Source of the DNA: Gloeobacterales cyanobacterium ES-bin-313
GTDB lineage: Bacteria; Cyanobacteriota; Cyanobacteriia; Gloeobacterales; Gloeobacteraceae
Length of the DNA: 64,000 nt
NCBI GenBank assembly: GCA_014379585.1
Contig: JACMLN010000129.1
Coordinates: 1 to 64,000 of the forward strand
Reading direction: 5' to 3'
This document shows, piece by piece, positions 3,878 through 33,229 of the stretch (positions are counted from its first letter, which is position 1; each line of letters opens with the position of its first letter). Under the pieces are notes generated by a model. It saw only the letters and a list, made by a program, of their open reading frames with translations, ran no database searches and had not been told where the DNA came from. Both the position numbers and the translations under genes were made by a program.

Positions 3878-3907
3878 CAGGGTGCACTTGCTGCACCCTG
3901 TTTTTTT
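3878..3907 (+). terminator. Rho-independent terminator of sigA
   Basis: A perfect 9-bp stem (3878-3886 with 3892-3900) and a 5-base loop are followed by seven T residues. It overlaps the stop codon of the convergent queA gene. Confidence 0.93.
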
Positions 3908-4946: not shown

Positions 4947-5058
4947 GATTGAATTTGTCTCTGCTATTCATTTTGCTGAGTACGAACCTTCCAGCCTCGA
5001 TCCTTCCTGGCGCTTCTAGCCATAAGCGATCTTTGCGATGAGATTCAGGCAATCAACA

Positions 5059-5556
5059 TTATCTACGTCCACCAGGCGAATAAAAAGTAATCCGCCCGTA
5101 ACTTAAAAACTGTGGATGAACCGTTTCCCCTGCGGGCAAAGCCGTCACTTCAAACAAAAAGGTTCCACCGGTACGCGGATTGCGCATGGGGTAAAACTCG
5201 ATATTGACTTGCCCACCAGGCGCAATCGCCTCAGCAAAGCCAAGACGAACTGCTCCACTCGTCACTTGGATCGTCTTGAGTGCTACAGGTTTGCCATCGC
5301 CACTCACAGCCTGAATATAGTCTGGGCTGGGCAAGCGAATCCCAAACGGAATCCCGATCACCAGCCCACCGAGGCTTGCGCCGCTCTCGACAGGCACAGT
5401 CACTTCGAAGGTGTAACGTGCGTAGTTGTAGGCCGAACTAAAGTTGTCTGTGGCCGAACGCTTCAGTTCGGGAACTTTGCTGAAAAATATTTCTGTGGCT
5501 TCAGCGCTTTGCACAGAAGCAATGAAAAAAAGGCTGGCAAGCCAAAAATGCTTCAT
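5059..5556 (-). CDS. Secreted DUF2808-type protein
   Basis: A 165-residue protein with a clear Sec signal peptide (cleavage expected after about residue 20, ...SAEA). The mature part is beta-rich, with a YARYTFEVTVPVESGASLGGL segment and a GTFLFEVTALPAG segment, as in cyanobacterial DUF2808 proteins whose function is unknown. It is the last gene of a tight minus-strand run: the upstream Rieske gene ends 15 bp before its start. This suggests a periplasmic role connected with that operon, but no biochemical role can be assigned. Confidence 0.7.
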   Translation of the reverse strand: MKHFWLASLFFIASVQSAEATEIFFSKVPELKRSATDNFSSAYNYARYTFEVTVPVESGASLGGLVIGIPFGIRLPSPDYIQAVSGDGKPVALKTIQVTSGAVRLGFAEAIAPGGQVNIEFYPMRNPRTGGTFLFEVTALPAGETVHPQFLSYGRITFYSPGGRR

Positions 5557-5571
5557 CGATTTTCTCCGAGG

Positions 5572-5916
5572 CTACCCAATCTGTTCTTGCGGGAAAGCAG
5601 AAGACACTTCCAAGTAGAGGTCTCCCTCCCTACACAGTACATTGTAGGCTTGAGTATCAAATCCTGGACGGTCGCATCCACCTGTTTGGGGATCAAAAAG
5701 AAATCGATGCCACGGGCAGTAGACCCAAAGACGGCCTTCTGACTCCACAATTCCTCCTTCTGCAAGGGGTGCTTCTTTGTGGGGACAGTTATTATCGAGG
5801 GCGCAATAGTGATCACCTAGTCGAAAAAGGGCAATTTCTCGGTCGGCAAACGCCACAACAATGCCCCGCTCCAGCGGAACATCAGCAGCTCTGGCAACGC
5901 GGATCCACTGCTTCAC
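5572..5916 (-). CDS. Rieske [2Fe-2S] ferredoxin-like protein
   Basis: A 114-residue single-domain Rieske protein. The cluster ligands are visible as C44-x-H46 (NCPHKEAPL) and C67-x2-H70 (YCPWHRF), with the classic tryptophan and no membrane anchor. This matches the NirD/biphenyl-dioxygenase-ferredoxin type of soluble electron carrier rather than the b6f Rieske subunit. It starts with GTG only 3 bp after the cysA stop, without a strong ribosome site of its own, so it is probably translated by coupling. The partner oxidoreductase is not in the window. Confidence 0.85.
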   Translation of the reverse strand: MKQWIRVARAADVPLERGIVVAFADREIALFRLGDHYCALDNNCPHKEAPLAEGGIVESEGRLWVYCPWHRFLFDPQTGGCDRPGFDTQAYNVLCREGDLYLEVSSAFPQEQIG

Positions 5917-5919
5917 AAA

Positions 5920-6948
5920 TCAGATAACGTAGTCAGCAAAGGTATGCACAGCACGCGGACAGATATAGACAGACTGGCCAACTCTGAGACTTACTTGACG
6001 CTCTAGACTCTGGAATTCTTCACGGGTCAGGCGCACGGCAAGGGTGTGATCCCCTTCCATGGTCAGATCAACTTGAATATCCCAACCCATATTGATAATG
6101 CGATCGATCACGGCTGGTACCGTGCCTTCCCCAGCTTGCGGAACAATCAGCACATCGTGAGGCCGAATAAATACGGCTCCTGTTTCTTCATTGCGCACCT
6201 GAGCGCTGTTTGCTAAGGGATTACCAGCCCTGAGGACATTAACAGGGCCAACAAAACTCATCACAAAGGGTGTCGCAGGTCGATTGTAAATTTCTTCAGC
6301 GGTACCGACTTGCTCAATACGTCCCTTGTTGACAACAACGATCTGATCGGCGACAGCCATTGCTTCTTCTTGATCGTGGGTAACAAACAAAGAGGTGAGG
6401 TGGACTTTGTCGTGAAGACGGCGCAGCCAATCCCGCAGTTCTTTGCGAACTTTCGCATCGAGGGCACCAAACGGCTCATCCAAGAGCAAGACACGGGGTT
6501 CAGCAGCGAGGGCACGGGCGAGGGCAACGCGCTGGCGTTGTCCACCAGACAGTTGGGAAGGATAGCGATTGGCTAACCCCTGCAACTGAATGAGATCTAA
6601 AAGTTCACTGGCCCGTTCCGCAATTTCTGCCTTGTCACGTTTACGGACGGTCAGACCAAAACCAATATTCTCCCGCACTGTCATGTGCTTAAACAGGGCG
6701 TAGTGCTGAAAAACAAAGCCAACATTGCGCTGACGGATGGGAACATGGGTTGTCTGCTCACCATCAAAAAAAACTTCCCCAGTGTCGGGTTCTTCGAGTC
6801 CAGCGATCACTCGCAACAGCGTGGTCTTGCCCGAACCAGAAGGGCCAAGCAAAGCGACAAGAGCCCCTGGCTCCACCTCTAGCGAAACATTGTCGAGGGC
6901 GGTGAACGAACCAAATCGCTTAGTAACGTTGCGAACGCTAATTCCCAT
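5920..6948 (-). CDS. cysA: Sulfate/thiosulfate ABC transporter ATP-binding protein CysA
   Basis: A 342-residue ATPase subunit that would power sulfate/thiosulfate import. It has Walker [11 protein letters not shown]-loop FVFQHYALF, signature [15 protein letters not shown], Walker [15 protein letters not shown], the switch histidine in VTHDQEEA and a TOBE-like C-terminal domain (IRPHDVLI). An AGGAG site lies 5 nt before the ATG at 6948, which excludes the upstream extension to 7038. No permease (cysT/cysW) or binding-protein gene is adjacent. Instead the operon continues into a Rieske protein and a DUF2808 protein. Substrate is assigned by similarity only. Confidence 0.85.
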
Positions 6949-7234
6949 AATTTCTCCTGTCAGCAGCGGTAGAAGCTTATTACTACCCTGCAGTAGATGG
7001 TGGACACCAAGGCTACATACTTCGATCCATCCCGGCAATTATACGGCAAGATTATGTACTTACCGACCATTCTTTATGATTTCATCTAACACTGCCAGAG
7101 TAATCTGCCAAGAATTCTGGGAGTGCATCGAAAACTACCATCCATTTCTCAGAAAGCTGGAAAAAACTTTACAATCCACCTTGGCACCCCGTGCAATGGC
7201 TCAAAATAGAACAACCCAAACTTGAGAGGCAAAC

Positions 7235-8263
7235 GTGCGAGCAGCAGTACTTTACGGGCAAGAAGATGTGCGCATTGAAGAGATTCCAGAGCCGATCCTC
7301 AGGGCTGGTGAAGTGCTTGTACGCGTTGCGGTCGCTCCAACTTGTGGAACAGATCTCAAAGTCTGGTTGCGGGGTGGCCATGCCCGGATGCTCAAACCAC
7401 CTACTCTTTTTGGCCATGAATTTGCCGGTGTGATCGCAGCCGTTGCCGACGATATCAGCCTTTGGCAGGTAGGAGATCGCGTTGTTGCCAACAACTCAGC
7501 ACCTTGCTTCAACTGTTTTTACTGTCGCAAGCAGCGCTTCAGCCTGTGTGAGGGACTTATTTTTAATAACGGCACCTTTGCTGAATCGATCCGCCTGCCT
7601 GCTCAGATCGTCAAACACAACTTGCTGAAAGTGCCCTCAGAACTGCCCTTGACCTTAGCCGCCCTCACCGAACCCCTGGCGTGCTGTTTGCATGGTGTCG
7701 CCGCTAGCGACGTCGGTCGCGGCGACACAGTCCTAGTGATTGGGGATGGCGCGATTGGACTGATGCTCGTCGCTGCCTGCGCTGATCGGGGTGCTCAGGT
7801 GTTTCTATGTGGTGGTCAAGAAAGTCGGCTCGCCCTCGGTACACGTCTTGGAGCCATGGCGACCGTGAACTATCACCGCACCCCAGAACTGGTTCAAACT
7901 CTACGCAAGCATGGTAGCGATGGGCGCGGACTCGATATCGTCATTGAAGCGACTGGGCAACCAAGTGTCTGGGAAACAGCGATTGCCTGTGCCCGCCCTG
8001 GTGCGACTGTGACTCTTTTCGGTGGCTGTCCACGGGGAACCCAGGTCGCTGTAGATACAGAAAATCTCCACTACAACGAACTCACCCTCAAAGGCGTTTT
8101 TCACAATACCCCGCAGCACGTCCGAGAGGCGCTCGCACTCCTGGCTTCTCGTCGTTTTCCCTTCGAGGTTTTGCTTACCGAAGCACTTCCCCTCGACAAA
8201 CTCCCTGATGCCCTCGCCCAGATGCGGGATCGCCAGGCAGTCAAAGTCGCTATTCGCCCTTAG
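7235..8263 (+). CDS. Zinc-dependent medium-chain alcohol/polyol dehydrogenase
   Basis: A 342-residue MDR-superfamily oxidoreductase. The catalytic zinc ligand region (TCGTDLKVW, then GHEFAGV) and the structural zinc lobe (four cysteines in PCFNCFYCRKQRFSLC) are present, followed by a Rossmann dinucleotide fold (VLVIGDGAIGLM). The overall pattern resembles sorbitol or threonine dehydrogenase-like proteins; the substrate cannot be inferred. The start is GTG at 7235, with GAGAGG about 6 nt upstream. It is transcribed divergently from cysA across a 286-bp spacer and converges on the M23 peptidase gene, whose stop directly abuts its own. Confidence 0.82.
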   Translation: MRAAVLYGQEDVRIEEIPEPILRAGEVLVRVAVAPTCGTDLKVWLRGGHARMLKPPTLFGHEFAGVIAAVADDISLWQVGDRVVANNSAPCFNCFYCRKQRFSLCEGLIFNNGTFAESIRLPAQIVKHNLLKVPSELPLTLAALTEPLACCLHGVAASDVGRGDTVLVIGDGAIGLMLVAACADRGAQVFLCGGQESRLALGTRLGAMATVNYHRTPELVQTLRKHGSDGRGLDIVIEATGQPSVWETAIACARPGATVTLFGGCPRGTQVAVDTENLHYNELTLKGVFHNTPQHVREALALLASRRFPFEVLLTEALPLDKLPDALAQMRDRQAVKVAIRP

Positions 8264-9214
8264 CTACTTCTCGATTAAGTAGGCTGAAACGCCTGTGCCC
8301 ATGCGATTGGGGTCGCTAAAGAGCAACTGCTGAACCGCTTCTCCTTGCTGCCACGGTGGCATGTCAATATCGAGAACGAAGTGGCCTTGATCGTCGCTGG
8401 TGGTGCGATTGTCGTTCAGGAGATACCCCTCTCGCACCGTATGCAATTGATAAATAACTGGAGCATTGGGTCGGTTGAGTGTGCCTTCAATGCGATAGGT
8501 TCTACCCATCAGCAGGACATGGGCAGGAGGAGCTGTATCGAGGCGAATGCCTGGAAAGGTATCGCGGAGTAGGGCAGAATCCTGGCCAAATTCGCTCGCA
8601 ATCGTCGAACGACCACAGGTGCGAGTGCCTTGACGAGGGATGCCTCCATTGGCGGTACCGAATAGCTTTGTTCGCAAAGAGATAAGCGAAGGCCAAAGGG
8701 TCACAGCAGTGAAGTGGAGATGGGGCGTAAGACCGTGATCTTTGCCGCTGTAGCCGATCAATTCCCCCGCCTGGACGATTGCTCCACCGACGACGTGCAT
8801 CCGATCCAAGTGGGCGTAAAGGGTGTAAAGGCCGCCACCGTGGTCAAGAACGATGCTATTGGTGTTGCTGTCGCTCGTCTGAATGGGCACAACCCGCCCA
8901 GTCGCTGCCGCAACCACAGGGGTGCCAATGGGCATCGAAAAGTCCCAGGCATAGCGATTGGAGCGTTCGTGATGGCTGAAAGCACCGTTGTTGCCTTGGC
9001 TGACGACAGCACAGCGTCCGGGGGCAAGGGGCAACTGCAAGCGCGTGGTACGAGTGGTTATCGCAGGTCGTCCGAGAGCAGGGAAGACATACACCTCAGC
9101 AAGCTGAGGCCGCAGTGACGGTTCGGAGGTCGCCACCGTGGACAGTGGCGCTGCGATGCCAGCATTGGCACAGACAAGCAGAAGAGCACAAGCAAGCGAA
9201 AAACGAAAAACCAT
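8264..9214 (-). CDS. Secreted M23 family (LytM-type) metallopeptidase
   Basis: A 316-residue protein with a Sec signal peptide (hydrophobic core then GIAAP), followed by an M23 domain. The zinc ligands of the HxxxD and HxH type are visible in ERSNRYAWDFSMP and in LTPHLHFTA, with the LDHGGGLYTLYAHL core. These enzymes cut peptidoglycan peptide cross-links in the periplasm. A C-terminal beta-rich domain of about 110 residues follows. ATG 9214 is chosen; a GTG at 9232 abutting the previous stop is an alternative. It is the second gene of an operon behind the HAD phosphatase. Confidence 0.82.
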   Translation of the reverse strand: MVFRFSLACALLLVCANAGIAAPLSTVATSEPSLRPQLAEVYVFPALGRPAITTRTTRLQLPLAPGRCAVVSQGNNGAFSHHERSNRYAWDFSMPIGTPVVAAATGRVVPIQTSDSNTNSIVLDHGGGLYTLYAHLDRMHVVGGAIVQAGELIGYSGKDHGLTPHLHFTAVTLWPSLISLRTKLFGTANGGIPRQGTRTCGRSTIASEFGQDSALLRDTFPGIRLDTAPPAHVLLMGRTYRIEGTLNRPNAPVIYQLHTVREGYLLNDNRTTSDDQGHFVLDIDMPPWQQGEAVQQLLFSDPNRMGTGVSAYLIEK

Positions 9215-9232
9215 GGCAGGGGGAAAGGGCAC

Positions 9233-10039
9233 TTAGGACAGTATAAATTTTTGGATGGCCGCCGCAACCCCGTTTTCTCTCACGGAGGGCGCTACCCAGT
9301 TGGCAAAAGCTTGGACTTTCGGGGTTGCATTTCCCATGGCCACACCGACCCCTGCGTATTGGAGCATTTCCACATCGTTTTGTTGATCACCGACTGTCAT
9401 CACCTCTTCAGGCATGAGATTCAAGCATTGCTCGGCCAAGAATTTGACCGCCAGTCCTTTGTTGGCCAAGGGATTGGCCACTTCGACGAAGGTGGGATCA
9501 GACTTGGTGAGGTAGAGTTCGTCGGGACGGTAGCGATTGGCCAGTTCTCCTAGAACCTGATCGGTCACGACCTCACCACTGGTCAGTGCGAGCACCTTGG
9601 TCGGCTCTGCTGTGAGAATAGAACGCAAATCCCCTACGACTTGCACCTCAACTCCAGTACGTTCCCCGTAAAGTTGACTGGCCGGAGTCATGGAGCGCAC
9701 GTAAAGGTGATCGTTGATATAGAGATGCACGGCCAAGGATTGTTCCTCAAAGTACTCCAATACTTCCAACGTGCGAGCCACGGAGACAGGATAGTGCAAC
9801 AGAACCCGCCCATCGAGTGGATTTTTTATCAAGGCTCCTTGATAAGAGATCAGCGGCAAAGTCGAAGCGATCTGATGGTAATAAGGCAGGGCAGAGCGGT
9901 ACATTCGCCCAGTTGCTAAAGCAAATTGCACACCGAGGGCTTGAGCCTGCTGAATCGCTTCTAGAACTGGTTCTGTTATTCCTGTCTGTTTGCTAATTAG
10001 GGTGCCATCGATGTCCAAAATCACAAGCTTGATAGGCAT
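9233..10039 (-). CDS. Cof-type HAD-IIB family phosphatase
   Basis: A 268-residue haloacid dehalogenase-type hydrolase. Motif I is VILDIDGTLI with the nucleophile and acid aspartates, motif II/III lies around LATGRMYR and the later lysine (LANKGLAVKFL), and motif IV is TVGDQQNDVEML. The cap insert is the IIB type. Such enzymes dephosphorylate small sugar phosphates or nucleotides; the substrate is unknown. ATG 10039 gives the normal N-terminus (MPIKLVILDIDG); a TTG at 10072 would add 11 residues without support. It is followed directly by the M23 peptidase gene. Confidence 0.85.
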   Translation of the reverse strand: MPIKLVILDIDGTLISKQTGITEPVLEAIQQAQALGVQFALATGRMYRSALPYYHQIASTLPLISYQGALIKNPLDGRVLLHYPVSVARTLEVLEYFEEQSLAVHLYINDHLYVRSMTPASQLYGERTGVEVQVVGDLRSILTAEPTKVLALTSGEVVTDQVLGELANRYRPDELYLTKSDPTFVEVANPLANKGLAVKFLAEQCLNLMPEEVMTVGDQQNDVEMLQYAGVGVAMGNATPKVQAFANWVAPSVRENGVAAAIQKFILS

Positions 10040-10192
10040 AAAAAAGGATCGAAATAGGGCGTTCAAACCCAAAATACCAGGGTTCGAGGGGGGGTTTTTG
10101 CATGATTTTACGGTTCAGACCCTAAGATCGGCTTGTAGAAGGACTTAGATGGTTTAATATTCCAAGAGAGATGTTGAGGAGATGTCGGCAAC

Positions 10193-10477
10193 ATGAATAA
10201 AGGTGAACTCGTTAAGGCTGTGGCCGAGCGGACCAAAATTACCCTCAAAGAAGCGGATGCTGTAATCACCGCTGTTTTTGAAGAAATTCAGGATACCGTT
10301 GCTAGTGGTGAAAAAGTAACCCTCGTCGGGTTTGGGACTTTCGAAGCGCGCAAACGTGCAGAGCGAGAAGGTCGTAATCCAAAAACCAACGAAAAGATGT
10401 TGATTCCAGCCACTGTCGCCCCGGCATTCAGCGCTGGCAAAACCTTCAAAGAAGCTGTACTTAGCCACACCAAATAG
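10193..10477 (+). CDS. hup: DNA-binding protein HU
   Basis: A 94-residue histone-like protein. It starts MNKGELVKAVAERT, has the dimer core VTLVGFGTFEARKR and the DNA-wrapping arm with GRNPKTNEKMLIPA, and ends with the helix containing AFSAGKTFKEAV. HU binds and bends DNA as a dimer and helps compact the nucleoid. GAGGAG upstream supports the ATG at 10193. A strong terminator lies 15 bp downstream, so the gene is probably monocistronic. Confidence 0.95.
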   Translation: MNKGELVKAVAERTKITLKEADAVITAVFEEIQDTVASGEKVTLVGFGTFEARKRAEREGRNPKTNEKMLIPATVAPAFSAGKTFKEAVLSHTK

Positions 10478-10491
10478 GCAAAAGCACATCT

Positions 10492-10524
10492 ATGGAGTCG
10501 GATGTTGCATCCGACTCCATTTTT
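10492..10524 (+). terminator. Rho-independent terminator of hup
   Basis: A perfect 13-bp stem (10492-10504 with 10508-10520) and a 3-base loop are followed by a T run. The stem also lies just beyond the stop of the convergent secG and may serve it too. Confidence 0.92.
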
Positions 10525-10532
10525 GTATGGTT

Positions 10533-10886
10533 TTACTGAGGCTTTTTGGCTGGCACGGTCTGCACAGGCTGCGGTGAACCACTTGTGGAGGTGGGTGGTG
10601 CAACAGGTGCAGCGGTTGGTGCAATCGGTGCAGTCGTTGCCGGGGTGGCAACACGGCCTAGCCAACCTGCACTAAGTACCGTGGTAATCGCCAAAAAACT
10701 GGCCACAGCGCTCCAAGTCACTTTATCTAAGGTGCTCTCGGCTGTTTTTTTGCTGTTGCCCATCTGGGCGGACCCACCGATCGCTGCCAAACCATCGCCC
10801 TTGGCCGCATGAAGCAGGACGGTGACGATGATCACGACAGCCGAAAGCGTCCAGAGAATACGCAGAAGAACTAAAATAACCGCCAA
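10533..10886 (-). CDS. secG: Preprotein translocase subunit SecG
   Basis: A 117-residue protein with two transmembrane helices flanking the conserved loop KGDGLAAIGGSAQ. SecG is the small accessory subunit of the SecYEG channel in the inner membrane. The C-terminal 45 residues are rich in Pro, Ala and Thr and look disordered, which lengthens the protein relative to typical SecG (about 75 residues). The start is TTG at 10886 with a perfect AGGAG 6 nt upstream. It is third in the secE-nusG-secG run, 9 bp after nusG. Confidence 0.9.
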   Translation of the reverse strand: MAVILVLLRILWTLSAVVIIVTVLLHAAKGDGLAAIGGSAQMGNSKKTAESTLDKVTWSAVASFLAITTVLSAGWLGRVATPATTAPIAPTAAPVAPPTSTSGSPQPVQTVPAKKPQ

Positions 10887-10895
10887 GACTTGCTC

Positions 10896-11483
10896 CTATT
10901 CGTCGGTGCGACGTACTTGGTTGAATTCGAGTTCGACGGGGGTATCCCGTCCAAAGATCGAGATCAGTGCCCGCAGTCTGCCACGTTCGGGGCTGACTTC
11001 GACGACTTCGCCGTTGAAATCTTGGAAGGGTCCAGAAATCACCTCGATCTTGTGACCGGGTTCAAGATCGACCTTGATCACGGGCTCCACTTCTTTGGAA
11101 GCCTTAAAGATCCGGTTCACTTCTCCCTGGCCGAGGGGACGGGGGGTAACATGGCCACGTCCACGCCCGTAGCGCCGCCGCTCCTCAGTACCGACGAAGT
11201 TAATCACGTTGGGGGTATTTTTGACTACCTGCCAGGATTCGTCGTCCATGAGCATGTTGACCAAGACGTAGCCAGGAAAGATCTTTTCGGCAGTGGTTGT
11301 CCGCGTGCCTTCTTGCTTGATCTTGATCTGAGGACGCTCAGGAATTTCGACTTTGAGAATGCGTTCACCCATGTCCATGGTCTGGATGCGTTGCTCAAGG
11401 TTCGTTTTCACTTTCTTTTCGCAACCTGAAGCAACTTGGACGATATACCAGTTAGATTCAGTGACTTTTTGTGCTGTATTCAT
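10896..11483 (-). CDS. nusG: Transcription termination/antitermination factor NusG
   Basis: A 195-residue protein with the NGN domain (WYIVQVASGCEKKVKTNLEQR, then PGYVLVNMLMDD) and a C-terminal KOW domain (GHKIEVISGPFQDFNGEVVEV). It binds RNA polymerase, limits pausing and links transcription with translation or Rho. The ATG at 11483 overlaps the secE stop as ATGA, so this start is preferred over an upstream extension to 11507. The usual downstream neighbours rplK-rplA are not here; secG follows instead. Confidence 0.93.
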   Translation of the reverse strand: MNTAQKVTESNWYIVQVASGCEKKVKTNLEQRIQTMDMGERILKVEIPERPQIKIKQEGTRTTTAEKIFPGYVLVNMLMDDESWQVVKNTPNVINFVGTEERRRYGRGRGHVTPRPLGQGEVNRIFKASKEVEPVIKVDLEPGHKIEVISGPFQDFNGEVVEVSPERGRLRALISIFGRDTPVELEFNQVRRTDE

Positions 11484-11725
11484 CGAAAAACGACTCCCGA
11501 AAGCCACTTAAAGATCTCATCGATCAAGTAAATAAAGCTCGCCATCCCAACGACGATCAACAGAACTGAAACCGATTCGCTGATCAGTTGTTGCCGTCCC
11601 GGCCACACCACTTTGTCGAGCTCGGCGCGAACCTCGGTGAGGAAAACTCGCGGATCGAACTTCGGCTTCGGCTCAGCCAGGGCTTTGCCGTCATCTTTGG
11701 CCTCTTTGCTTAACTCTTTGGTCAC
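11480..11725 (-). CDS. secE: Preprotein translocase subunit SecE
   Basis: An 81-residue protein with a charged cytosolic N-terminus and a single C-terminal transmembrane helix preceded by the conserved amphipathic segment (FLTEVRAELDKVVWPGRQQLI). This is the short form of SecE found in cyanobacteria. It is the essential clamp subunit of SecYEG. The start is GTG at 11725 with AAGGAG about 10 nt upstream. It overlaps nusG by ATGA, and tRNA-Trp lies just upstream. Confidence 0.92.
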   Translation of the reverse strand: MTKELSKEAKDDGKALAEPKPKFDPRVFLTEVRAELDKVVWPGRQQLISESVSVLLIVVGMASFIYLIDEIFKWLSGVVFR

Positions 11726-11750
11726 CGCCGAAGATCTCCTTGGACAAAGG

Positions 11751-11823
11751 CGCGTCGTGAAGGACTTGAACCCTCGACATCAGGTTTTGGAGACCTGCGT
11801 TCTACCAACTGAACTAACGACGC
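11751..11823 (-). tRNA. tRNA-Trp (CCA anticodon)
   Basis: A full cloverleaf on the minus strand. The 7-bp acceptor stem GCGTCGT/ACGACGC is perfect, the anticodon loop CTCCAAA gives CCA (11788-11790), the T arm contains GTTCAAG and the discriminator is G. CCA is not encoded. The order tRNA-Trp, secE, nusG is conserved in many bacteria. Confidence 0.95.
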
Positions 11824-11873
11824 ACAGAGTCTTATTCTACAGTCAGTGTTCCCCCATCAGCAACCGCTCCCCC

Positions 11874-14800
11874 TTAACCGACGATCTGCTCAGTGCGGGC
11901 TGCAAACCCTTTTTGCTGCAGGGCTTGAATCAGAATCCGGCCATCGTTGACTCGAAACTGTTGACCGAAGCGGACATAGCTCTGGCGTTGGTGGGTTCTG
12001 ACCGAGGCGATCACAGGCACCTGGGAACTTTCATCGTGGTGTGCCAGCAAGACTTCGCGGATCCCGTGCCAGGTCTGCATATCGGTACGGCAGTCGAGAT
12101 CGACCACCACCAACTGCACGTCCTCCACGGGCTCGGCATCTTGAATAATCAACTGAGGGCGGTCGTCGCGCACGTCGATCTTCCCCCAGAGCATCAGACG
12201 GGCATCGGCGACAAACAAACTCCCCACTTTTTCGTAGGTCTTTGGAAAGAGCACCGCTTCGGTCGAACCGGTCAGATCTTCGAGCTGCACAATCGCCATG
12301 CGATCCCCTTTTTTGGTGACCACACCTTTGACATCGCGGACTAAGGCAATGGCACTCACAGCCGTATCAGCTCGGCACTCGCCTAAATCCGCAAGATTGA
12401 CCGGAGCGAGGAGCCGTGCTTCTTGCCTGAGAGACTTCAGGGGGTGGTCAGAAATGTAAAAGCCCAAAAGTTCGCGCTCGAAGCGCAATTTTTCGACAGG
12501 ATCCATCTCTGGTACAGGTTGCGCACTAGGTGCATCGCTACTGCCTGCCCCGCTCCCGCCAAACAAGTCGAAGAGATTCGATTGGCCAATTTCGCGATCT
12601 TTGGCTCGCTTTGCCGCCCAGTCGAGGGCAACTTCTAGATCCGCGATCAATTGGGCGCGATTATTGTTGAACTGATCAAAACAACCCGCCTTAATCAAAG
12701 CTTCCAAGGCGCGCTTGTTGACGGTACGCGCATCAACCCGTTCGCACAGATCCCCCAAGCTTTTGATTGGACCTTTATCCCGCCGGGTTTCGATAAGCGC
12801 ATGAATCGCCCCTTCTCCGACGTTCTTCACAGCTCCAAGACCGAAGAGAATGCTCTGGCCTTGAGGGGTGAAGTCAATATCCGAACGGTTGATATCGGGG
12901 GGCTGAATCTTGATGCCCATACTGAAGCAACTGGCGATATATTTCTGCACCTTATCTTGATCGGATTGCACCGAACTGAGTAGGGCCGCCATATATTCAA
13001 CTGGGTAATGCGCCTTCAGATAAGCAGTCTGAAACGTAACGTAACCGTAGGCAGCAGAGTGGCTTTTGTTGAAACAGTACTCCGCAAACAAGACCATTTG
13101 TTCAAATAGGTCATCAGCGACATGGGGATTTACGCCATTTTTTGATGCACCTTCGACAAAAATAGAGCGGTGTTTTTCCATCTCGTCTTTTTTCTTTTTG
13201 CCCATGGCACGGCGCAGCAAATCGGCTTGCCCCAGGGAATACCCGCCTAAGCTCTGGGCAATCTTCATGATCTGTTCTTGATAGACGATCGATGCGTAGG
13301 TATCAGAAAGAATCGGCTCTAAAAGCGGGTGGGCATATTCAATCTTTTTGCGTCCGTGCTTTCTGGCAATGAATTCAGGAATCATCCCCGCATCCAAAGG
13401 CCCCGGTCGATAGAGCGCCAAAATAGCCGAAATATCTTCAATATTAGAAGGTTTCAAGTCTTGGACAATCTGCTTCATGCCAGAGGACTCTAACTGGAAA
13501 ATACCTTCTAGATCGGCACGGGTGAGCAGTTCGTAGGTCTTCGGATCGTCGATAGGCAACTCGTCAACATCCAGTGTCACCCCCCGATATTGCTGGATCA
13601 TCTTCTGGGCACGGTGGATCATCGTCAGGTTGCGCAGCCCAAGAAAGTCCATTTTCAATAGACCCAAGTCGGCAATATCCTCCATGTAGTACTGAGTGAT
13701 CACTTGACCTTCGTTGTTCTTCTGAAGCGGCACAATTTCATCTAAGGGTTCACGGGAAATCACAACACCAGCGGCATGAACCCCGAAGGTTTTGTTCGTA
13801 TTCTCTAGTCGCATTGCCAGATCGATCCACTTGCGAACCCGTTCTTCGCCTTCATACGCTTGCTTGAATTCCGGCGATGGGGTGTCATCAGCGATCATCT
13901 TGTTGAGCTTTACGGGTTTGCCCCGGACAACGGGGATCAGCTTCGCCAATTTATCTGCTTCACCGTAGGGAATATCAAGAACCCGCGCCACATCTTTTAA
14001 GACCGCTTTTGAGGTCATCCGGTTGAAAGTAATAATCTGAGCGACGTGATCTGTTCCATATTTTTCAGTCACGTACTTAATAATTTCGTCCCGTCGCTCA
14101 ATACAGAAATCCGTATCAATATCCGGCATGGATTTGCGTTCAGGATTCAAAAAGCGCTCGAACAACAAGTTGTAGCGAACCGGATCAATATTCGTAATTC
14201 TCAGGGCATAGGCAACCAGGCTTCCTGCCGCCGATCCGCGACCTGGCCCAACCGCAATCCCACTATCGCGGGCGTATTTTATATAGTCCCAGACGACCAA
14301 GAAATAGGTAGAGAAACCCATCTTCTCGATCATGTTCAACTCGTAACGCAGACGCTCTTTATACACATCAGAAATTTCATTGCCGAAGCGTTCCCGCATT
14401 CCCTGCCAGGTGATCTCTTCTAAATAACTTTCGGCGTTATACCCACGGGGAATCGGAAACTCAGGCATCCGCGACTCGCCCAAGATTTCCTTGTCGTAGC
14501 GCTCGACTTTATCGGCAATTTCCTGGGTATTGTTAATCGCTGCAACCACGACTTCCATGGGCAGATGATCTTGGAACATCTCGGCCATCTGTTCAGCGGT
14601 CTTCAAGAACTCGGCACCCGAGTAGCGCATCCGATTCTCTTCCGCGATCAACTTACCCGTTTGAATACAGAGCAACGCATCGTGGGCATCGACTTCTTCG
14701 CAGGAAGTGAAGTGAGAATCATTGGTGGCAATCACCTTAATGCCCAATTCTTGGCCGATGCGTACCAGTGCAACATTCACCACCCGATCTTCTTTAAGAC

Positions 14801-15338
14801 CATGGTCTTGAATTTCCAGATAAAAGTCTTCGCCGAACAGGTCTTTGTACCACTGAGCAATGCGGCGGGCTTCGTGAAGCGTTCCATTGAGAATCTGCTG
14901 TGGAATTTCACCGCCTAAGCAAGCACTCGTGCAGATAATGCCTGTGTGGTACTGCTCCAACATTTCTTTGTTCATGCAGGGGCGCGAAAAAATCCCTTTT
15001 CCTTGCACACCTTCCAGGTGGGAAATCGTCACCATCTTGACGAGATTCTTGTAACCCTGCAAATTCTTCGCCAGCAAAACTTGGTGGTAACGCTTGTAGC
15101 GCTTCACTTTGTCGTGAATATCGCCATTGATCACGTAGGCTTCGGTACCGACAATCGGCTTCAAATTGGCTGCACGGCACTTCTTGATCAGCTCAATCGC
15201 TCCATACATCACCCCGTGATCCGTCAACGCCAGTGCCGTCATGCCGTTGTTCTTGGCTTGATCGATCAGCGGTGCCAATTGGCTTGCCCCATCGAGGAGG
15301 CTGTATTCGCTGTGGGTATGGATGCTGGTGTACTGCAT
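11874..15338 (-). CDS. dnaE: DNA polymerase III subunit alpha, intact and intein-free
   Basis: The 1154-residue replicative polymerase. The PHP domain opens with [14 protein letters not shown]. The polymerase core has the metal-binding aspartates in MPDIDTDFC (residues about 402-406) and [16 protein letters not shown]. The helix-hairpin-helix, an OB-fold region and the C-terminal domain follow. The sequence [13 protein letters not shown] at Tyr754-Cys755 is uninterrupted; this is exactly where most cyanobacteria carry the split DnaE intein. ATG 15338 is preferred over TTG 15344. The gene is alone, with tRNA-Trp downstream on the same strand. Confidence 0.96.
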
Positions 15339-15376
15339 GGTCAAACACTACCGATGACTGGGACGATCTCACTTAG

Positions 15377-15514
15377 ACACTAAATATAGAGCAAATTCTG
15401 TTTGCAGAGACCAGAAATGGACATTTGATTACAATTATAGTTGATGAGGAAGGTGCGATCCAGGCAAAAGAGTTTTGGAGTGTTGTACCCAAAACTTCCC
15501 GCATCAAGCTTTAG
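15377..15514 (+). pseudogene. Remnant of an unidentified gene (C-terminal 45 codons)
   Basis: An open frame without a credible start codon runs from 15377 to a TAG at 15512-15514. It encodes a peptide that reads like a real protein end (…ETRNGHLITIIVDEEG…KEFWSVVPKTSRIKL). An in-frame TAG directly precedes it and no ribosome site is present. I take it to be the decayed 3' end of a small gene that once lay between dnaE and the conflict cassette. The family is not recognised, and chance cannot be excluded. Confidence 0.4.
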
Positions 15515-15557
15515 CAATCATCCCAAGCATCTTCTCTTGATTGTTAATTGCTAAAGC
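15508..15557 (-). terminator. Inverted repeat downstream of the caspase gene
   Basis: Perfect 11-bp arms (15508-15518 and 15547-15557) surround a 28-base loop, 3 bp after the caspase stop codon. There is no T tract, so it may be a weak terminator or an mRNA 3'-end protector. Confidence 0.4.
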
Positions 15558-15560
15558 GGA

Positions 15561-16760
15561 TTAAGGTAAAGAATTTGTGATACTTCCTGAAATCTGATTT
15601 TGCGGTTCTCCCACCTCTTCAGGCAGAATCCGATTTATTTCGGCATACAAATTTTGGTACGGGAGAGAGTCACCTTCATATAGATGGATAGCCAAAATAA
15701 GTTGCGCAAGCCCTCCTCTAAAGTCCCGTACTGTTTTGAGGATGTTGAGTATGTCTGTATTAGAATCGCTTCCACGAGAAATAACACTGGCTACATTAGG
15801 ACTCAGATCACCCACAATAGCATCACGTTTTGCCTGACTTTGCATCGATGCGCAAGCCAGGAACAGATCACGCAGTCTTCCTCGCTCTGCAAGACTAAGC
15901 GTGCGTGGCAGTCTTGCCGTTTGTTGAATTGGACTTGACAGTGCCCTTGGTGTAAGGCGGAAGTTATATTCATTGCCAACCATATCTTTGTGCCACAAGT
16001 ACACAGGTGTCTGGCGAGTGCGCCCTTGGGCACGCAGTTCATCAAACCGGCTTTGCAAACGGCTGGAAATCTGCGGCAATTGCTCAGACCAATTCTCTGC
16101 AGGAGGCAGGGAATTGAGTTCTTTTAGTAGTTCCCTTGTATATACGCCCGTCTGTTGCGTGTCATCGTTTTTGGCTAAGTCTCCAGGGCGAGCGGCAAGG
16201 AGTACAAATTGCTCAATCCCTGGCAGAACAGTCCCTTTTGCAACTTGGGTACTGGGAGGAGTGACTGCCATACCTATGGCATAGTTGGCGCAAGCATCAA
16301 CTACAAATACTTGTTTTCTGGTGCCGGAAAATAAGTTTGTACGCATCGCTGTTAACTGGTCATTCAGATCCATATTTCTCAGGTTCTTTTCAGTTGTATC
16401 GGAAACGAAGAGCCGTCTTTGCCCATCTTGGGTTAACCATCCGTGCCCACCCCAATACACCAGCAAAAGGTCTGCTTTCTGACCCTGTAAAGCCTCAAAT
16501 GCTTTTTTCACCTGATCTTCAGTCGCGGGCAGTGGTGCAGTTCCCAGAAGCTGAGTAATCTCATCTACGAGAGCAACATTCGATTCCAAAGGAGAAAGCA
16601 GAACCGTCAGGTTAGCAGGTGGCACGCCAATTCCAGTCAACCACTTAGCTATCCGTAGAACGTCTGGTACTGGACCATTGAGGTTCCATCGATCTCCAGC
16701 CTCGTAGCGGTCAATGCCTACAAGCAATGCACGGGTGGCAGCTGGCACATAAGCATTCAT
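15561..16760 (-). CDS. Caspase-like (C14) peptidase with C-terminal EAD2 adaptor domain
   Basis: A 399-residue protein. Residues about 8-230 form a caspase/metacaspase-type domain: ATRALLVGIDRY strand, catalytic His106 in YWGGHGW and catalytic Cys157 in VFVVDACANY. Residues about 295-385 match effector-associated domain 2 (LRDLFLACASM, KRDAIVGDL, DILNILKTVRDF, GGLAQLILAIHLYEG). EADs mediate homotypic contacts in bacterial conflict systems, and caspase-EAD proteins are proposed effectors. The start overlaps the upstream hydrolase stop as ATGA (16757-16760), so ATG 16760 is chosen. The neighbouring gene at 18014 has a clearly related EAD2, which suggests the two proteins bind each other. Confidence 0.85.
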   Translation of the reverse strand: MNAYVPAATRALLVGIDRYEAGDRWNLNGPVPDVLRIAKWLTGIGVPPANLTVLLSPLESNVALVDEITQLLGTAPLPATEDQVKKAFEALQGQKADLLLVYWGGHGWLTQDGQRRLFVSDTTEKNLRNMDLNDQLTAMRTNLFSGTRKQVFVVDACANYAIGMAVTPPSTQVAKGTVLPGIEQFVLLAARPGDLAKNDDTQQTGVYTRELLKELNSLPPAENWSEQLPQISSRLQSRFDELRAQGRTRQTPVYLWHKDMVGNEYNFRLTPRALSSPIQQTARLPRTLSLAERGRLRDLFLACASMQSQAKRDAIVGDLSPNVASVISRGSDSNTDILNILKTVRDFRGGLAQLILAIHLYEGDSLPYQNLYAEINRILPEEVGEPQNQISGSITNSLP

Positions 16761-17965
16761 GACTGAGGCAACCTGTCGAATAAAGCATCCCAAACATCCA
16801 AGTTATTCCAGTAGGCACCATGAGATTCAGGGAATGGCTGACCACTATCAACCAGAATATCTTCAACTTTTCCTGGAAATATCTCCGCACCGATGTAACT
16901 CAGAAAATCGTCTTCGTCGTAGAAGTTGAGCCATCGAGGATAACCCTCTGGTAACGAGGCACCCGCTTGATACGCCTTGTTTACCAAAGCATTCCACTCG
17001 TAAAATAAGGGCGATTGAGAACCAACGGTAACTAGCAGATCTACTTTCGGTGGATCTGCTTCCAGCAAAAGATCCACACTGGCGACTCCGCCCAGACTGT
17101 GGGCAAGCAATACGACTGGTCCTTGTTTGTCTGCGATGGTCTTTCGGATAAAATTGCGAATTTCTTGGCCCCGTGCCTGATAAAGAATCACGTCCCCAGG
17201 AAAGGCGTTGATCGAATTAAAAATCTTGCCACGACGATCCCGCACTGTGTTGGTACCCAATCGCTTGAGCACACCCCCTAGCGCTTCGAACAATAGACCA
17301 ATACCCCTGTCTGAACCGCCTAAAGCATCAATGATCATGCCAACCATTTGTTCGCGCTGTTTTGTGGTGCAGCTGATTGCCATCGAGCCATTCTCATCCT
17401 TCACCAGCACAACCATTTGGGCAAACAGGGCACGAGCCAGAGCTTTGCGATAATCGCTAACCAGCCCTTCATCGCTCAATTTGCTCATAGCATTTTTAAA
17501 GTCTGGTTCAGCCATGATGTTCTGCCGAGCCATATCAAACCATTCAGCCTCGATACCAATTTCAGCTAGTCCAACAATGAGTTTCTCTGAAGGCAACATT
17601 TCGCCAATTGAAGCTTGCAACTCCGTCCCTAGAGAGTCTGTTCCAGGCACAAAACTTTCCTGCTGGGATCGTTGAGCTAGAAATTGCAGCTCAAATAGAG
17701 GATCTTGATAGAGCAATCGCCAAAGTTCCAGAGTGAATTCGTCATTGTCCAACTCGCGACTGTAGGAGCGGGTAGTTTCGAATTGCGGTACCGAGGCACC
17801 ATTCGCATTGAGCTTCGAGCCATACTCTCCTCCCCAGTAGCACCTATGTAAGCGTGCTGAGGCATCTTTCTTTTTCAATTGGCGCTCAATAATTTTGTAG
17901 GTGCTTGTATAGGCTGCTTCTCTGACCCCTATCCCATGTACAAAAATAAAGTCGCAACTCATCAT
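16757..17965 (-). CDS. Serine alpha/beta hydrolase (lipase/esterase-like) of the EAD2 cassette
   Basis: A 402-residue predicted cytosolic hydrolase. The oxyanion strand is FIFVHGIGV at the N-terminus. The nucleophile elbow AHSLGG contains Ser290. An acid is expected in YDEDDF (residues 350-353) and the histidine is likely His382 in ESHGAYW. A long helical insertion (residues about 60-260) separates the first strand from the elbow. AGGAGA lies just before two adjacent ATGs (17965 and 17962). It is translationally coupled to the caspase gene. Lipid or ester cleavage, possibly of the host membrane, is plausible; the substrate is unknown. Confidence 0.75.
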   Translation of the reverse strand: MMSCDFIFVHGIGVREAAYTSTYKIIERQLKKKDASARLHRCYWGGEYGSKLNANGASVPQFETTRSYSRELDNDEFTLELWRLLYQDPLFELQFLAQRSQQESFVPGTDSLGTELQASIGEMLPSEKLIVGLAEIGIEAEWFDMARQNIMAEPDFKNAMSKLSDEGLVSDYRKALARALFAQMVVLVKDENGSMAISCTTKQREQMVGMIIDALGGSDRGIGLLFEALGGVLKRLGTNTVRDRRGKIFNSINAFPGDVILYQARGQEIRNFIRKTIADKQGPVVLLAHSLGGVASVDLLLEADPPKVDLLVTVGSQSPLFYEWNALVNKAYQAGASLPEGYPRWLNFYDEDDFLSYIGAEIFPGKVEDILVDSGQPFPESHGAYWNNLDVWDALFDRLPQS

Positions 17966-18013: not shown

Positions 18014-19321
18014 TTAATTCTCTTGTATATCTATCTCCCCTGGCAAGAGCTGCTGGATTCCATTTTGTAAGGCATTAAACGGGATTGTCGCTCCCTCATA
18101 TAGCCCGACTGCCTTTACAAGTTCTTGGAGACCACCAGAGAAGTCTCGCACGATCGTAAGAATATTAAGGACATGGGTCTTCGGGGCACCATTGTAAGCA
18201 ATTTGCGCTTTGATATTGTCCGGTAGAGCGGCTACGATTGCATCGCGCCTAACACTATCGTTTACCGCAGCACAGGCAAGGAAAAGATCTACCAGTTTCT
18301 CTCGCTCCTCTATGGCCAACCTTTTCGGGGCTCCAAGTTGCTCATTGCGGAGCTTATCAAGCAGTTGAGGGCGAAAATGACGGATCGTTTCTAGCAGAGA
18401 GAGCCACTGATCCTCATTGAGAAGTTGATCAAAGCCTTGGGCAATCGCCAAGATATTTCTGGTATCTGACTTTGGTAGCCCGTAAGGAGATTTGCCATAA
18501 AGGACGATGTTGATCGCTTGGTCAATGTATTCCTGTTCATTGTCCGAGTTCATTGGAGGTGCTTCGATCAGCCTTTGTTGGAGTAGACCGAAAACTTGCT
18601 TGAGGCATTCACGCTCCGTATGTACTCGAATAAGGTGCATACAAAGTTGGGCGTAGGATTTCTCATCAGTTTCTGGATACTTTTCAAGAAACCACCCTCT
18701 CAAAAAATCTCCCTCTCCAAGCTCAAGCCTGTATAGATAAAGAGCACCGTAGGAACGATCATCTGTGTCTGTGAATTTTGCTCGCTGAAGTGAACCAATA
18801 TCCAAAAGTTCTCCATGATTGTATTGGCAAAGCAGGAGAGGTTCTCCATAGCTGCACCACCATGGGAAGGATTGCCAATTTCCGGTAGGCTCAATAGTCT
18901 GCGTCGTCGCTTGTAGCAGATGGTTCGATAGAGGCTCGCCTACTTGCCGTAGTAAATATTCTGCTTCTTCTGAGTGCAATGGCACTTTTGTGCCAAGAGT
19001 TGTCCAAGTTTGAATCATCTGTTGACAGGCTTCCCATGCCAAAGGCATTGAAACTCCAGTTCCAGGTTCTAGTTCTACAACAAATCTTGAAACTACAGTG
19101 CCCCTCCAAAATAGTTTCCGACGAACCTTCAATATCTCAGCCTGCCCAACCTCCTGCGCAAACCGGAGGGCTTGATCTGCAGCACAATACAGTTCCTCTC
19201 CAGGTAAGTATCGACTACCCCACCCACTACTTCGATACGCTCCCGTTGAGCGAATAAAGTGTTTATTAAACTTAAGAGCTGCAAAAGGCAGATTAATGAT
19301 GCGAACATCATCCTTTGGCAT
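18014..19321 (-). CDS. EAD2-containing protein with unrecognised N-terminal region
   Basis: About 435 residues, first gene of the cassette. The C-terminal ~95 residues (LVDLFLACAAV, RRDAIVAAL, HVLNILTIVRDF, GGLQELVKAVGLYEG) are EAD2 and align closely, by eye about half identical, with the EAD2 of the caspase protein two genes downstream. The first ~330 residues match no family I know. The segment from about residue 5 to 90 is beta-rich and basic, and the middle is helical and rich in Trp and Tyr. There is no Walker motif, so it is not a STAND ATPase. The start is uncertain: ATG 19321 or TTG 19366. No strong ribosome site is seen. Confidence 0.7.
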   Translation of the reverse strand: MPKDDVRIINLPFAALKFNKHFIRSTGAYRSSGWGSRYLPGEELYCAADQALRFAQEVGQAEILKVRRKLFWRGTVVSRFVVELEPGTGVSMPLAWEACQQMIQTWTTLGTKVPLHSEEAEYLLRQVGEPLSNHLLQATTQTIEPTGNWQSFPWWCSYGEPLLLCQYNHGELLDIGSLQRAKFTDTDDRSYGALYLYRLELGEGDFLRGWFLEKYPETDEKSYAQLCMHLIRVHTERECLKQVFGLLQQRLIEAPPMNSDNEQEYIDQAINIVLYGKSPYGLPKSDTRNILAIAQGFDQLLNEDQWLSLLETIRHFRPQLLDKLRNEQLGAPKRLAIEEREKLVDLFLACAAVNDSVRRDAIVAALPDNIKAQIAYNGAPKTHVLNILTIVRDFSGGLQELVKAVGLYEGATIPFNALQNGIQQLLPGEIDIQEN

Positions 19322-19382
19322 CAATGCACGCACATCAGCAATCGGAAAACATAGCGTCAGTAACAACGAATCATGCCAGCTA

Positions 19383-19418
19383 GAAAAAATGCAAAAGCCC
19401 AGGACAAACCTTGGGCTT
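19383..19418 (-). terminator. Minus-strand terminator just upstream of the EAD2 cassette
   Basis: On the minus strand an AAGCCCA/TGGGCTT stem (extended by a GG/CC pair across one bulge) is followed by TTGC and six T residues. It ends about 20-60 bp before the first cassette gene. No gene on this strand lies upstream for 1.7 kb, so it probably ends a short leader transcript (attenuator) or an independent small RNA. Confidence 0.6.
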
Positions 19419-19570
19419 CAAAGGCTGTTGTCAACCCTGACCTAGAACGAGTCCTTTGCTCTTCTGGTCTCTATATCTAAGTTAGCACCACTTCTGGTGT
19501 CTTTGCAAGCACGGTTAGAACTACTTATCCATATTGTGCAACTACTTAGTCACCCTGACTATTATCGCCA

Positions 19571-19650: not shown

Positions 19651-20121
19651 TTGGATGATTCTGTGAATGCTGAGTTAACCCCTGAAGATTCCATCGAACC
19701 TTACGGCGCGGGCACTTTTATCGTCTATGCACGGCGGGTCTGTAGCGGCCAGTCGGTCACTGAGCAAGTTGTGGTGCGCCACAGTGGAGATATCGATCCT
19801 GAGCATTTGCCCCATATTCAACTCGCGGCAAGTCGTGCCTGGTTGCGCCTCGGTCAGCGACTTTTGGGTCAGCGGGATGCAGAAGGAGCCGTCACCTGCG
19901 CCCGTGCTGGCCTCGAAGAGCTGGGAAAAGACTACGGAGCCAAATCCAAAGATGGGGTTACTTTATCGGATGACTCCGATACTCGAATTCGCTCGGCAGA
20001 AACAAATATTGCTGCAGGGCGAGCCAGCACTGGTGCAGAGGCACTTTTGGGGGTTCTAAGTTTGCGCATTAGCATCTACACTCGACAACGACAGGCAACC
20101 CTGGCGGAGAAGAAGACGTGA
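19651..20121 (+). CDS. Hypothetical protein translationally coupled to argB
   Basis: A 156-residue soluble protein of unknown function, helical in the second half ([34 protein letters not shown] looks like one or two TPR-type hairpins). It starts with TTG at 19651, preceded by AAAGG; GTG 19663 is an alternative. Its stop overlaps the argB start as GTGA, so the two proteins are made from one message in coupled fashion. This hints at a connection with arginine or nitrogen metabolism, but the sequence shows no catalytic motif. Confidence 0.6.
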
Positions 20122-31063: not shown

Positions 31064-31174
31064 ATGACTGAGGCTGTGCAGGCTTTTGAGTCTGTATCGG
31101 TTGTCGAGGTTTCGCAAGGACGCGATCACGGCAGTGTCAATGAAATTGCAAACAGTATAGAATCACCCTTGTAA
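31064..31174 (+). CDS. Possible 36-residue small ORF
   Basis: An ATG-initiated frame of 36 codons (MTEAVQAFESVSVVE…) ending TAA, with an AGGGG about 11 nt upstream. Its last codons overlap the end of the convergent ATPase gene. The composition is protein-like, but nothing identifies it, and it may be the N-terminal stub of a lost gene. Low confidence. Confidence 0.2.
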   Translation: MTEAVQAFESVSVVEVSQGRDHGSVNEIANSIESPL

Positions 31175-33229
31175 TTCTCTTTGCCAAAGCATCGTTTGAA
31201 GTTGGGTTAACCCAGTACTGAGATGGCGACGGTAGGTGCTAAAAGGTAGATCGAGGCGTTCGGCGACAAGCTCTTGATTGGCCATAGGTTGCAAATAAGT
31301 GTACAGCAAAGCACGGTAGGCTTTGCTCTGTTTAGGGGACGATTGCAAAGAATCAACCACTTCTTTAATCAACTCCTTTAGAACTGGAACAGCCTCCTGC
31401 TGTTGGACAGCACTGCGCTCGATCACCAGGCGAGAACGCAGTAGCGGGTTAGTGCGCAAATTTTCGGGCTGGGTATAGTCCCGTAGAGCAGTGCGTAGGG
31501 CTTGGATAAATTCTGGTTGACTGAGGGCGACGAGGGTAGGCGCGGATGGCTGTATCTTCGGCGGAACAGCTAGGGCGATCTCCCGCTCCGCGAGGCGTGC
31601 CAACCAAGCAACAGGGGGAACGACCCGCCAATCGTGGCCATAAATTCCGTAGGTAATACCCTCGACAGTGTAGTCGGCGTCAGGAATGCGTACCAAGTCT
31701 GCGTAGGCAAAGACTGCTGCCCAATGTTCAGGGTTACGCACGGGAAAGAAACTAAAAGCCAATCCCGGAGTGGTCAGGTAGTGGCGCACCATTTGCACTG
31801 TGATCAAACTTTGGACGGGAGAAATACTGTGATAGGTTTCATGACCCATCCAGAAGCGAAAGTGGGTCGCCCCCTCGCCAGAACGCAGTGGCGCATGGCT
31901 CTGAAGATAGTCCCAGGCTTTTTGGAGGGCAGGATCTTGGGCACGATCTGTCGCTTCGGTGCGTTCAAGGGCAAGAGCCATCAAGAATCCGACTGGCTTT
32001 TGGGTTTGATCTCGAAAAACCTGAATAGCTTCAGGCTGTTGCTTGCACCAGTAAGCCGCGAGGTCTGCTGACGCTTTGCCCTCAAAGCGTTTCACGACGG
32101 CGAGCATGTCCCCAAGATCGTCGGTTCGAAAATGATCGACACGCAATCGGCTCTGTTGCCGCCATTCAAAACTGGGTCGGACAACCGGATTATCCCTGTG
32201 CAAAAAGATGTAGTCAAAAAGTAGCTGCTGCCCTGCATCGCGAAGGCGCTCAGCGTAATAGTTGCGGGCACGGCGATGCAGGTCAATGTAACGTTCGCGG
32301 TTGCGCCAGCGCAGATCGGCGATGAGTACCTCGCGGGCAAGGTCGTGGGGATACAAACCGTCCACCCCAGTTTCCATAAAACTGAGATTGCGCAGCCAAT
32401 TAAATGGCGCACTCGCATCGGGCAGTTCTAAGATCTCGGCGAGCAAACTCTCTGTCGTGCACCGAACCAAAGCACTGGTTTCAAGAGCAAGGCGCTGCTG
32501 AAGATCGAGGCCAGCATTCACAAACCGTTCAAGGAGCAATTTGACAATGTCTGGCTCGACCTGAGGTTCAAAGCTTTGATCTGGATGCTGAACAAAATGA
32601 TCCGCCACCAAAGAAAGTGCGAGGGGATGACCGTGGGTAAATTCGAGCACCGCCCGATGCTGTACCAGGGGAATTTTGCGCTCGACAAGGTAGGATCGGC
32701 CTTCTTCGGGGCTAAGATTGCGCAGCGGCACAGTACACAATAAACTTTGCCAACCAGGATCGGTGCGCCAAGGAGCAGTTGGTGGAAAGCGCCCTGCCAA
32801 GACCACCAAGATGTTGTCGGACAGTTGGGGCAAAAGACTGTTGCGCACCCAATCGTCGAGGGGAGCCAGATTTTCGTAGGTATCAATCAAGAGCACTTGG
32901 CGTTCGGTGCAGTTGGCGAGCCAACTGAGGGGCGCACCTTCGCAGTCACGACCAATTTCCCGCTGCAACGCCTCCGAGAAAGCCTCAGGAAAAGGCTCTG
33001 TCGCGCTCGCATTGAGGCGAATTACAGGAATATCGCTATCGGCACAGATTCCAGCAAACTGATTGAGCAAGGTTGTCTTACCGATTCCGCCAGGCCCATG
33101 GATATGCAGCACCAAAAAAGGCAATTCTGGGGCAAGAACTGCCCTCTTAAAAAGTGCGCACTCATCGGTGCGTCCAACAAAGCGGCGAAGGCGTTCGGCG
33201 CGTAGACGATCAGCAAGACGAGAAGTCAT
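31163..33229 (-). CDS. STAND-type ATPase with C-terminal sigma-4/LuxR-like helix-turn-helix
   Basis: A 688-residue protein. An N-terminal P-loop NTPase has Walker A HGPGGIGKTTLL (residues about 44-55), Walker B QVLLIDTYENL, a sensor segment (ILVVLAGRF) and the THGHPLALSLVADHF region typical of the winged-helix part of STAND proteins. A middle region of about 300 residues is not recognised. The last ~60 residues (ALLYTYLQPMANQELVAERLDLPFSTYRRHLSTGL) look like a sigma region 4/LuxR helix-turn-helix. A ligand-sensing, ATP-switched transcription regulator or conflict protein is likely. It is monocistronic, and its start is divergent from the acyltransferase. Confidence 0.72.
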   Translation of the reverse strand: MTSRLADRLRAERLRRFVGRTDECALFKRAVLAPELPFLVLHIHGPGGIGKTTLLNQFAGICADSDIPVIRLNASATEPFPEAFSEALQREIGRDCEGAPLSWLANCTERQVLLIDTYENLAPLDDWVRNSLLPQLSDNILVVLAGRFPPTAPWRTDPGWQSLLCTVPLRNLSPEEGRSYLVERKIPLVQHRAVLEFTHGHPLALSLVADHFVQHPDQSFEPQVEPDIVKLLLERFVNAGLDLQQRLALETSALVRCTTESLLAEILELPDASAPFNWLRNLSFMETGVDGLYPHDLAREVLIADLRWRNRERYIDLHRRARNYYAERLRDAGQQLLFDYIFLHRDNPVVRPSFEWRQQSRLRVDHFRTDDLGDMLAVVKRFEGKASADLAAYWCKQQPEAIQVFRDQTQKPVGFLMALALERTEATDRAQDPALQKAWDYLQSHAPLRSGEGATHFRFWMGHETYHSISPVQSLITVQMVRHYLTTPGLAFSFFPVRNPEHWAAVFAYADLVRIPDADYTVEGITYGIYGHDWRVVPPVAWLARLAEREIALAVPPKIQPSAPTLVALSQPEFIQALRTALRDYTQPENLRTNPLLRSRLVIERSAVQQQEAVPVLKELIKEVVDSLQSSPKQSKAYRALLYTYLQPMANQELVAERLDLPFSTYRRHLSTGLTQLQTMLWQRELQG

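Follow-up and report, generated by a model that had tools for sequence, protein, structure and literature searches.

EADs are coupling adaptors, of which one copy is located on a core component and another on an effector or signalling protein (PMC7159879). The partners that EAD2 brings to a core protein are mainly signalling peptidases and nucleotide enzymes (PMC7159879). The pairing of a caspase with an alpha/beta-hydrolase has been described by Kaur et al. in 2020 (PMC7159879). In the Canu and trypsin-nuclease systems, gating insertions in the nucleases are removed by proteases (PMC12799240).

The 64,000-nucleotide stretch of cyanobacterial DNA analysed here (the window) contains an operon in which a caspase and an alpha/beta-hydrolase are accompanied by a protein with an unassigned N-terminal region and a C-terminal EAD2, which we call X. 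X is probably the trigger of, or a partner in, a compact cell-suicide defence operon. The features of the operon are as follows:

18014..19321 (-), protein X, 435 aa, with the unassigned N-terminal region and the C-terminal EAD2; open reading frame with a Pfam EAD2 match
18293..19321 (-), unassigned N-terminal region of X, residues 16-358, about 343 aa; no family match, described by composition
18065..18292 (-), EAD2 of X, residues 359-434; Pfam PF19956, E = 6.3e-12
16757..17965 (-), alpha/beta-hydrolase; Ser290 and His382 intact, candidate Asp350 or Asp353, insertion of ~190 aa located between HGxG and the nucleophile
15561..16760 (-), caspase (C14)-EAD2 protein, start ATG 16760; Pfam C14 5e-12, EAD2 4e-12
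15645..15869 (-), EAD2 of the caspase protein, residues 309-383; Pfam
15471..15496 (-), terminator-like hairpin between the caspase gene and dnaE; from a consensus scan in which the number of such hairpins is not above that in shuffled sequences

Gene organization and the hydrolase–caspase pair

The genes are encoded on one strand in the order X-EAD2, alpha/beta-hydrolase, and caspase-EAD2, and are followed by dnaE. X is separated from the hydrolase by 48 nt, and the stop codon of the hydrolase gene overlaps the ATG of the caspase gene. The open reading frame of X spans positions 18014..19366 (-) in one uninterrupted frame. Translation from TTG 19366 would give 450 aa and that from ATG 19321 (residue 16) 435 aa, and the ATG is the more likely start. 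X contains a stop-free run of 332 codons, whereas the longest runs in shuffles of the same bases have a mean of 61 and a maximum of 178 codons (n=2000). The codon usage of X resembles that of both conserved partner genes, and is not better than that of some other frames.

The GC3 of the X, hydrolase, and caspase genes is 0.40-0.47 as against 0.59-0.60 in dnaE and argB, and because of this departure the operon looks as if it was acquired as a unit. It is bounded by dnaE and by an unrelated ORF on the opposite strand ahead of argB, and no marker of a defence island or mobile element was identified next to it. The small opposite-strand ORF, at positions 19678-20121 (+), taken as a flanking marker for the insertion site, has no match in five other genomes of the family. 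A hairpin with a T-run just upstream of X, at positions 19385-19419 (-), has a folding z-score of -1.2, which is not significant, and is a possible leader or terminator. Elsewhere in the window, positions 31163-33229 (-) encode a protein of 688 aa that seems to have a P-loop (GPGGIGKTTLLNQF) and by eye looks like a STAND-like regulator.

A hydrolase profile gathered 80 loci of cyanobacterial, actinobacterial, and other origin, which 13 further loci extended to 93. The hydrolase–caspase pairing recurs across several phyla, as a caspase adjoins the hydrolase in 85 of the 93 loci. The pair in the window is of this type, with adjacent genes and catalytic residues in both products; His117 and Cys168 of the caspase (numbered from TTG 16793) are intact. 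MoxR ATPase was counted in 44 of the 93 loci within the locus DNA examined. EAD2 occurs in 14 loci, 13 of which also contain MoxR; the fourteenth has a neighbour of the FxSxx-type HEXXH kind, assigned by its resemblance to an annotated one. The spacing from the HGxG motif to the catalytic serine is 266-311 aa in 91 hydrolase homologues, compared with 67 in an ordinary hydrolase of the window. Conservation is lower in the stretch containing the insertion than in the catalytic part, and by analogy the insertion is reminiscent of those that gate caspase- or trypsin-activated nucleases.

The two EAD2 domains

The EAD2 of X scores 46.0 bits with PF19956, against a curated cut-off of 23.8, and thus belongs to the EAD2 family; that of the caspase scores 46.6 bits against the same cut-off. 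The only other Pfam match in X is to the similar-looking EAD8, which is below the threshold and covers the EAD2 stretch. Exactly two EAD2 copies were found in the source genome, which is 96% complete, and the operon carries both, one of them on a signalling peptidase. Judged by sequence, VMAP and a third EAD2 protein are absent from this genome.

The two domains are reciprocally nearest, with a sequence identity of 45% compared with at most 34% to 23 others, and the EADs of these neighbouring genes are therefore closer to each other than to the rest, as in a cognate pair. The duplication that separated them appears to be old because their identity is only 45%. In a tree of 25 EAD2 domains, those of X and of the window caspase form one branch with weak support (66/63), and the EAD2 of X groups with those of the window and Pleurocapsa caspases with support of 87/88. 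Actinobacterial EAD2 domains from caspases and those from other genes of the same loci form separate groups in this tree. The placement of X in the second EAD2 type, which we assume to be VMAP-carried and whose genes are located about 9 kb from the hydrolase, was rejected with a p-AU of 0.007, the tested group having been defined after the tree was seen. Since the EAD2 of X groups with the caspase-carried type, a simple replacement of VMAP by X is disfavoured. It is plausible that the caspase EAD2 was duplicated and a new N-terminal region captured.

Six actinobacterial loci (L087, L094, L100, L101, L105, and L110) each contain two EAD2 types at a distance of about 9 kb, the first on the caspase adjacent to the hydrolase and the second near the start of another gene. 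The EAD2 partners in these loci may complement each other instead of being identical.

The N-terminal region of X

The earlier note had described a region of about 330 residues, unrecognised and fused to EAD2, and the placement of the Pfam match agrees with its boundaries to within a few codons. The basic start and the middle rich in tryptophan and tyrosine that it had noticed are both evident from the composition: residues 16-130 have a pI of 9.6, and the acidic residues 131-255 include 4 tryptophans and 8 tyrosines in 125. The third part appears helical in models of low confidence. AlphaFold run without an alignment on pieces of 332 and 140 residues reached pLDDT values of 37.7 and 43.5, and the best Foldseek match of the 140-residue model, which with its pLDDT of 43.5 is too poor to serve as evidence, was not below E 0.48. 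Neither model is good enough to support a claim of a fold, or of the beta-rich start that the note had described.

Pfam returned nothing for the whole N-terminal region up to E = 10, and only noise at E >= 0.16 for its fragments. The Pfam models of VMAP-C, VMAP-M, GAP1, and STAND do not match X at E up to 10, and X carries none of the recognised core classes on which one EAD copy resides in EAD systems (VMAP, iSTAND, GAP1, Ubl, and EACC1). The NCBIfam scan provided no relevant match, PADLOC and PHROGs none below E 0.03, and PDB sequences none below E 0.09. The family scans agree with the previous reading that the region has no Walker, TIR, protease, or nuclease signature, and the sequence searches returned no confident match to a housekeeping domain, the result that had been named as counting against a sensor or effector role.

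Several specific relationships were considered and rejected. A RES/ADP-ribosyltransferase-like N-terminus was suggested by eye from GAYRSSGWGSRYLPGEELYCAADQALRFAQEV; a profile of 13 RES relatives performed no better on X than on decoys, and X came 60th in a ranking with about 800 shuffled and decoy sequences. A degenerate caspase is not indicated, as a profile of 86 caspase domains scores X at -2.4 and 63 of 98 shuffles scored higher. Profiles of the hydrolase and MoxR likewise score X no better than shuffles. Homology to a gene of the related loci gave no signal with phmmer, or with hhalign when ~95 ORF clusters from these loci were used as profiles, the largest cluster (248 ORFs) being left out.

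The tblastn searches detected no homologue of the N-terminal region in ~1,300 genomes of Cyanobacteria, Actinomycetota, and Pseudomonadota. They covered 386 cyanobacterial, 347 actinobacterial, and 349 pseudomonadotal genomes, together with 240 genomes of the order to which the best hydrolase match belongs, which probably overlap with the cyanobacterial set. The source genome is the sole member of its genus in the search among relatives. None was found in 8 genomes bearing a related module, or in phages or plasmids, and peptide patterns of X, which detect close relatives only, are absent from 84,980 species genomes and from viral contigs. Weak tblastn matches (E 0.003-5) have low scores, fall on unrelated parts, and are scattered among unrelated proteins; some of the matches are full of stops, and they are no more numerous than expected for the genomes searched. 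One of them, from Paracoccus, is located within what, judging by its sequence, is probably a LigD-type gene. At the sensitivity of these sequence searches, the N-terminal region of X is an orphan. Because no homologue was found, conservation cannot be claimed, and the description of the region as conserved-looking is not supported. The proposal of a new sensor or effector family is likewise not supported, as a single sequence lacking homologues does not make a family. A role as sensor, effector, or core component is the reading expected from the logic of EADs.

Role of X and comparison with known systems

We favour the explanation, at a probability of about 45%, that X-EAD2, the hydrolase, and caspase-EAD2 form one conflict operon, of the abortive-infection or cell-death kind, in which X is the core that triggers the caspase and then the hydrolase. 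The one-strand arrangement with tight spacing, the common GC3, and the hydrolase–caspase adjacency across the related loci argue for a conflict operon. X probably occupies the core or sensor position and recruits the caspase through EAD2, since the only two EAD2 copies, reciprocally nearest, are in one operon with the caspase, and VMAP-C was not found in the source genome. The N-terminal region without a homologue, the caspase-carried type of the EAD2, and the lack of a defence-island or mobile-element marker count against this position. The orphan region would sense an infection or stress cue, or be relieved by it. Homotypic binding between the EAD2 of X and that of the caspase could then gather caspase molecules and so activate them. 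The activated caspase would cut the gated hydrolase, and possibly other targets, and the cleaved hydrolase may damage membrane lipids or another ester substrate, so that the cell is stopped.

A bolder version, which we regard as speculative and rather unlikely, holds that the N-terminal region is a new infection-sensing domain that triggers the caspase directly by EAD2 assembly, without an NTPase, in a minimal three-gene apoptosome-like circuit. It would place such a circuit in a cyanobacterium that, judged by kinship and gene content, is early-branching (Gloeobacter-like). If X is the core, a partner other than an NTPase can drive an EAD2-caspase-hydrolase death module, and the orphan region of X illustrates the fast turnover of recognition parts in such systems. 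The three genes, of about 4 kb, are small enough for a test of the activation of a bacterial caspase by EAD2 alone, and are also suited to a test of the hydrolase as a caspase-activated effector; both have been predictions since 2020.

The strongest rival, which we nevertheless consider doubtful, is that X is an effector or its precursor, a toxin or enzyme that EAD2 docks to the caspase and that cleavage releases or activates, with sensing performed by the caspase or by an unseen component. EAD-tagged proteins adjoining a caspase are often effectors (PMC7159879), and the caspase-carried type of the X EAD2, expected if X and the caspase are both recruited modules, would fit a second EAD2-tagged effector equally well. 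However, no catalytic family is detectable in X, the hydrolase already provides an effector, and the genome has no third EAD2 protein to act as the core. Moreover, in contrast to EAD1, EAD2 reportedly brings in signalling parts and not effectors (PMC7159879).

It is distinctly less probable that X belongs to a known core class, such as VMAP, iSTAND, or GAP1, but has evolved so fast, or been truncated, that a single-sequence search fails to recognise it. The middle regions of such components diverge strongly, X is located where VMAP or NTPase components sit elsewhere, and both the AlphaFold and profile tests of X were run without an alignment. Against this stand the absence of any VMAP-C, VMAP-M, GAP1, or STAND match at E up to 10 and of VMAP-C from the genome, the C-terminal position of the EAD and lack of a Walker motif, the empty hhalign comparison with all but the 248-ORF cluster of the related loci, and the shuffle-like scores with profiles of the caspase, the hydrolase, and MoxR. 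A non-functional or decaying by-product, in which a duplicated caspase EAD2 became fused to an unselected frame, would explain the missing homologues, the nearest EAD2 being in its own operon, and a codon usage no better than that of some other frames, but is very unlikely given 435 codons without a stop in the first gene of a tight operon, codon usage like that of two conserved partners, and an EAD2 kept at 45% identity since an old duplication.

With X as the probable core, the operon can be compared with described systems. It contains no VMAP, MoxR, or vWA gene and hence is not a VMAP ternary system, and no NTPase is encoded among its genes. The best VMAP-MoxR-vWA example, locus L032 of Pleurocapsa sp. 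MO_192.B19, has the same order of hydrolase and caspase-EAD2, and a second EAD2 on a partner; its hydrolase is the closest found, with 44% identity to that of the window. L032 encodes an EAD2-VMAP, a MoxR ATPase, and a large protein with an FGE domain at its end; we take this protein to be the vWA component from its position, as Pfam detects just the FGE domain. The window operon lacks all three. Unlike the EAD2-VMAP of L032, X has a C-terminal EAD2 of the caspase-carried type, and the remainder of the protein is an orphan. The complete L032 locus (2523-12922) also includes another FGE-like gene, the second in the locus, together with a reverse transcriptase (11861-12922), possibly from a diversity-generating retroelement with the FGE sensors as its target (compare PMC10907252). 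On the viral-classed contig of locus L144 (IMGVR_UViG_2636415960_000005, 7995-15813), genes for the hydrolase, a caspase-like protein, and a MoxR-like ATPase, with one for a large protein downstream, adjoin a group-II-intron-like reverse transcriptase.

In the cyanobacterial loci L027, L028, and L030, a related hydrolase (38-41% identity) adjoins a related caspase without MoxR, as in the window. Their caspase-NB-ARC(-TPR) proteins have the caspase fused to a STAND NTPase and then TPRs, whereas the window caspase bears EAD2 instead. The Canu and trypsin-nuclease systems resemble the operon in pairing a protease with a hydrolytic proenzyme bearing a gating insertion (PMC12799240). Their effector is an MBL nuclease, and they have no EAD (PMC12799240), whereas the candidate effector of the window is an alpha/beta-hydrolase; activation by the protease has been demonstrated for them (PMC12799240), whereas for the window operon we infer it. 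The operon belongs to the known theme of EAD conflict systems (Kaur et al. 2020, PMC7159879), and what is new in it is an architecture that dispenses with VMAP and with an NTPase in the operon.
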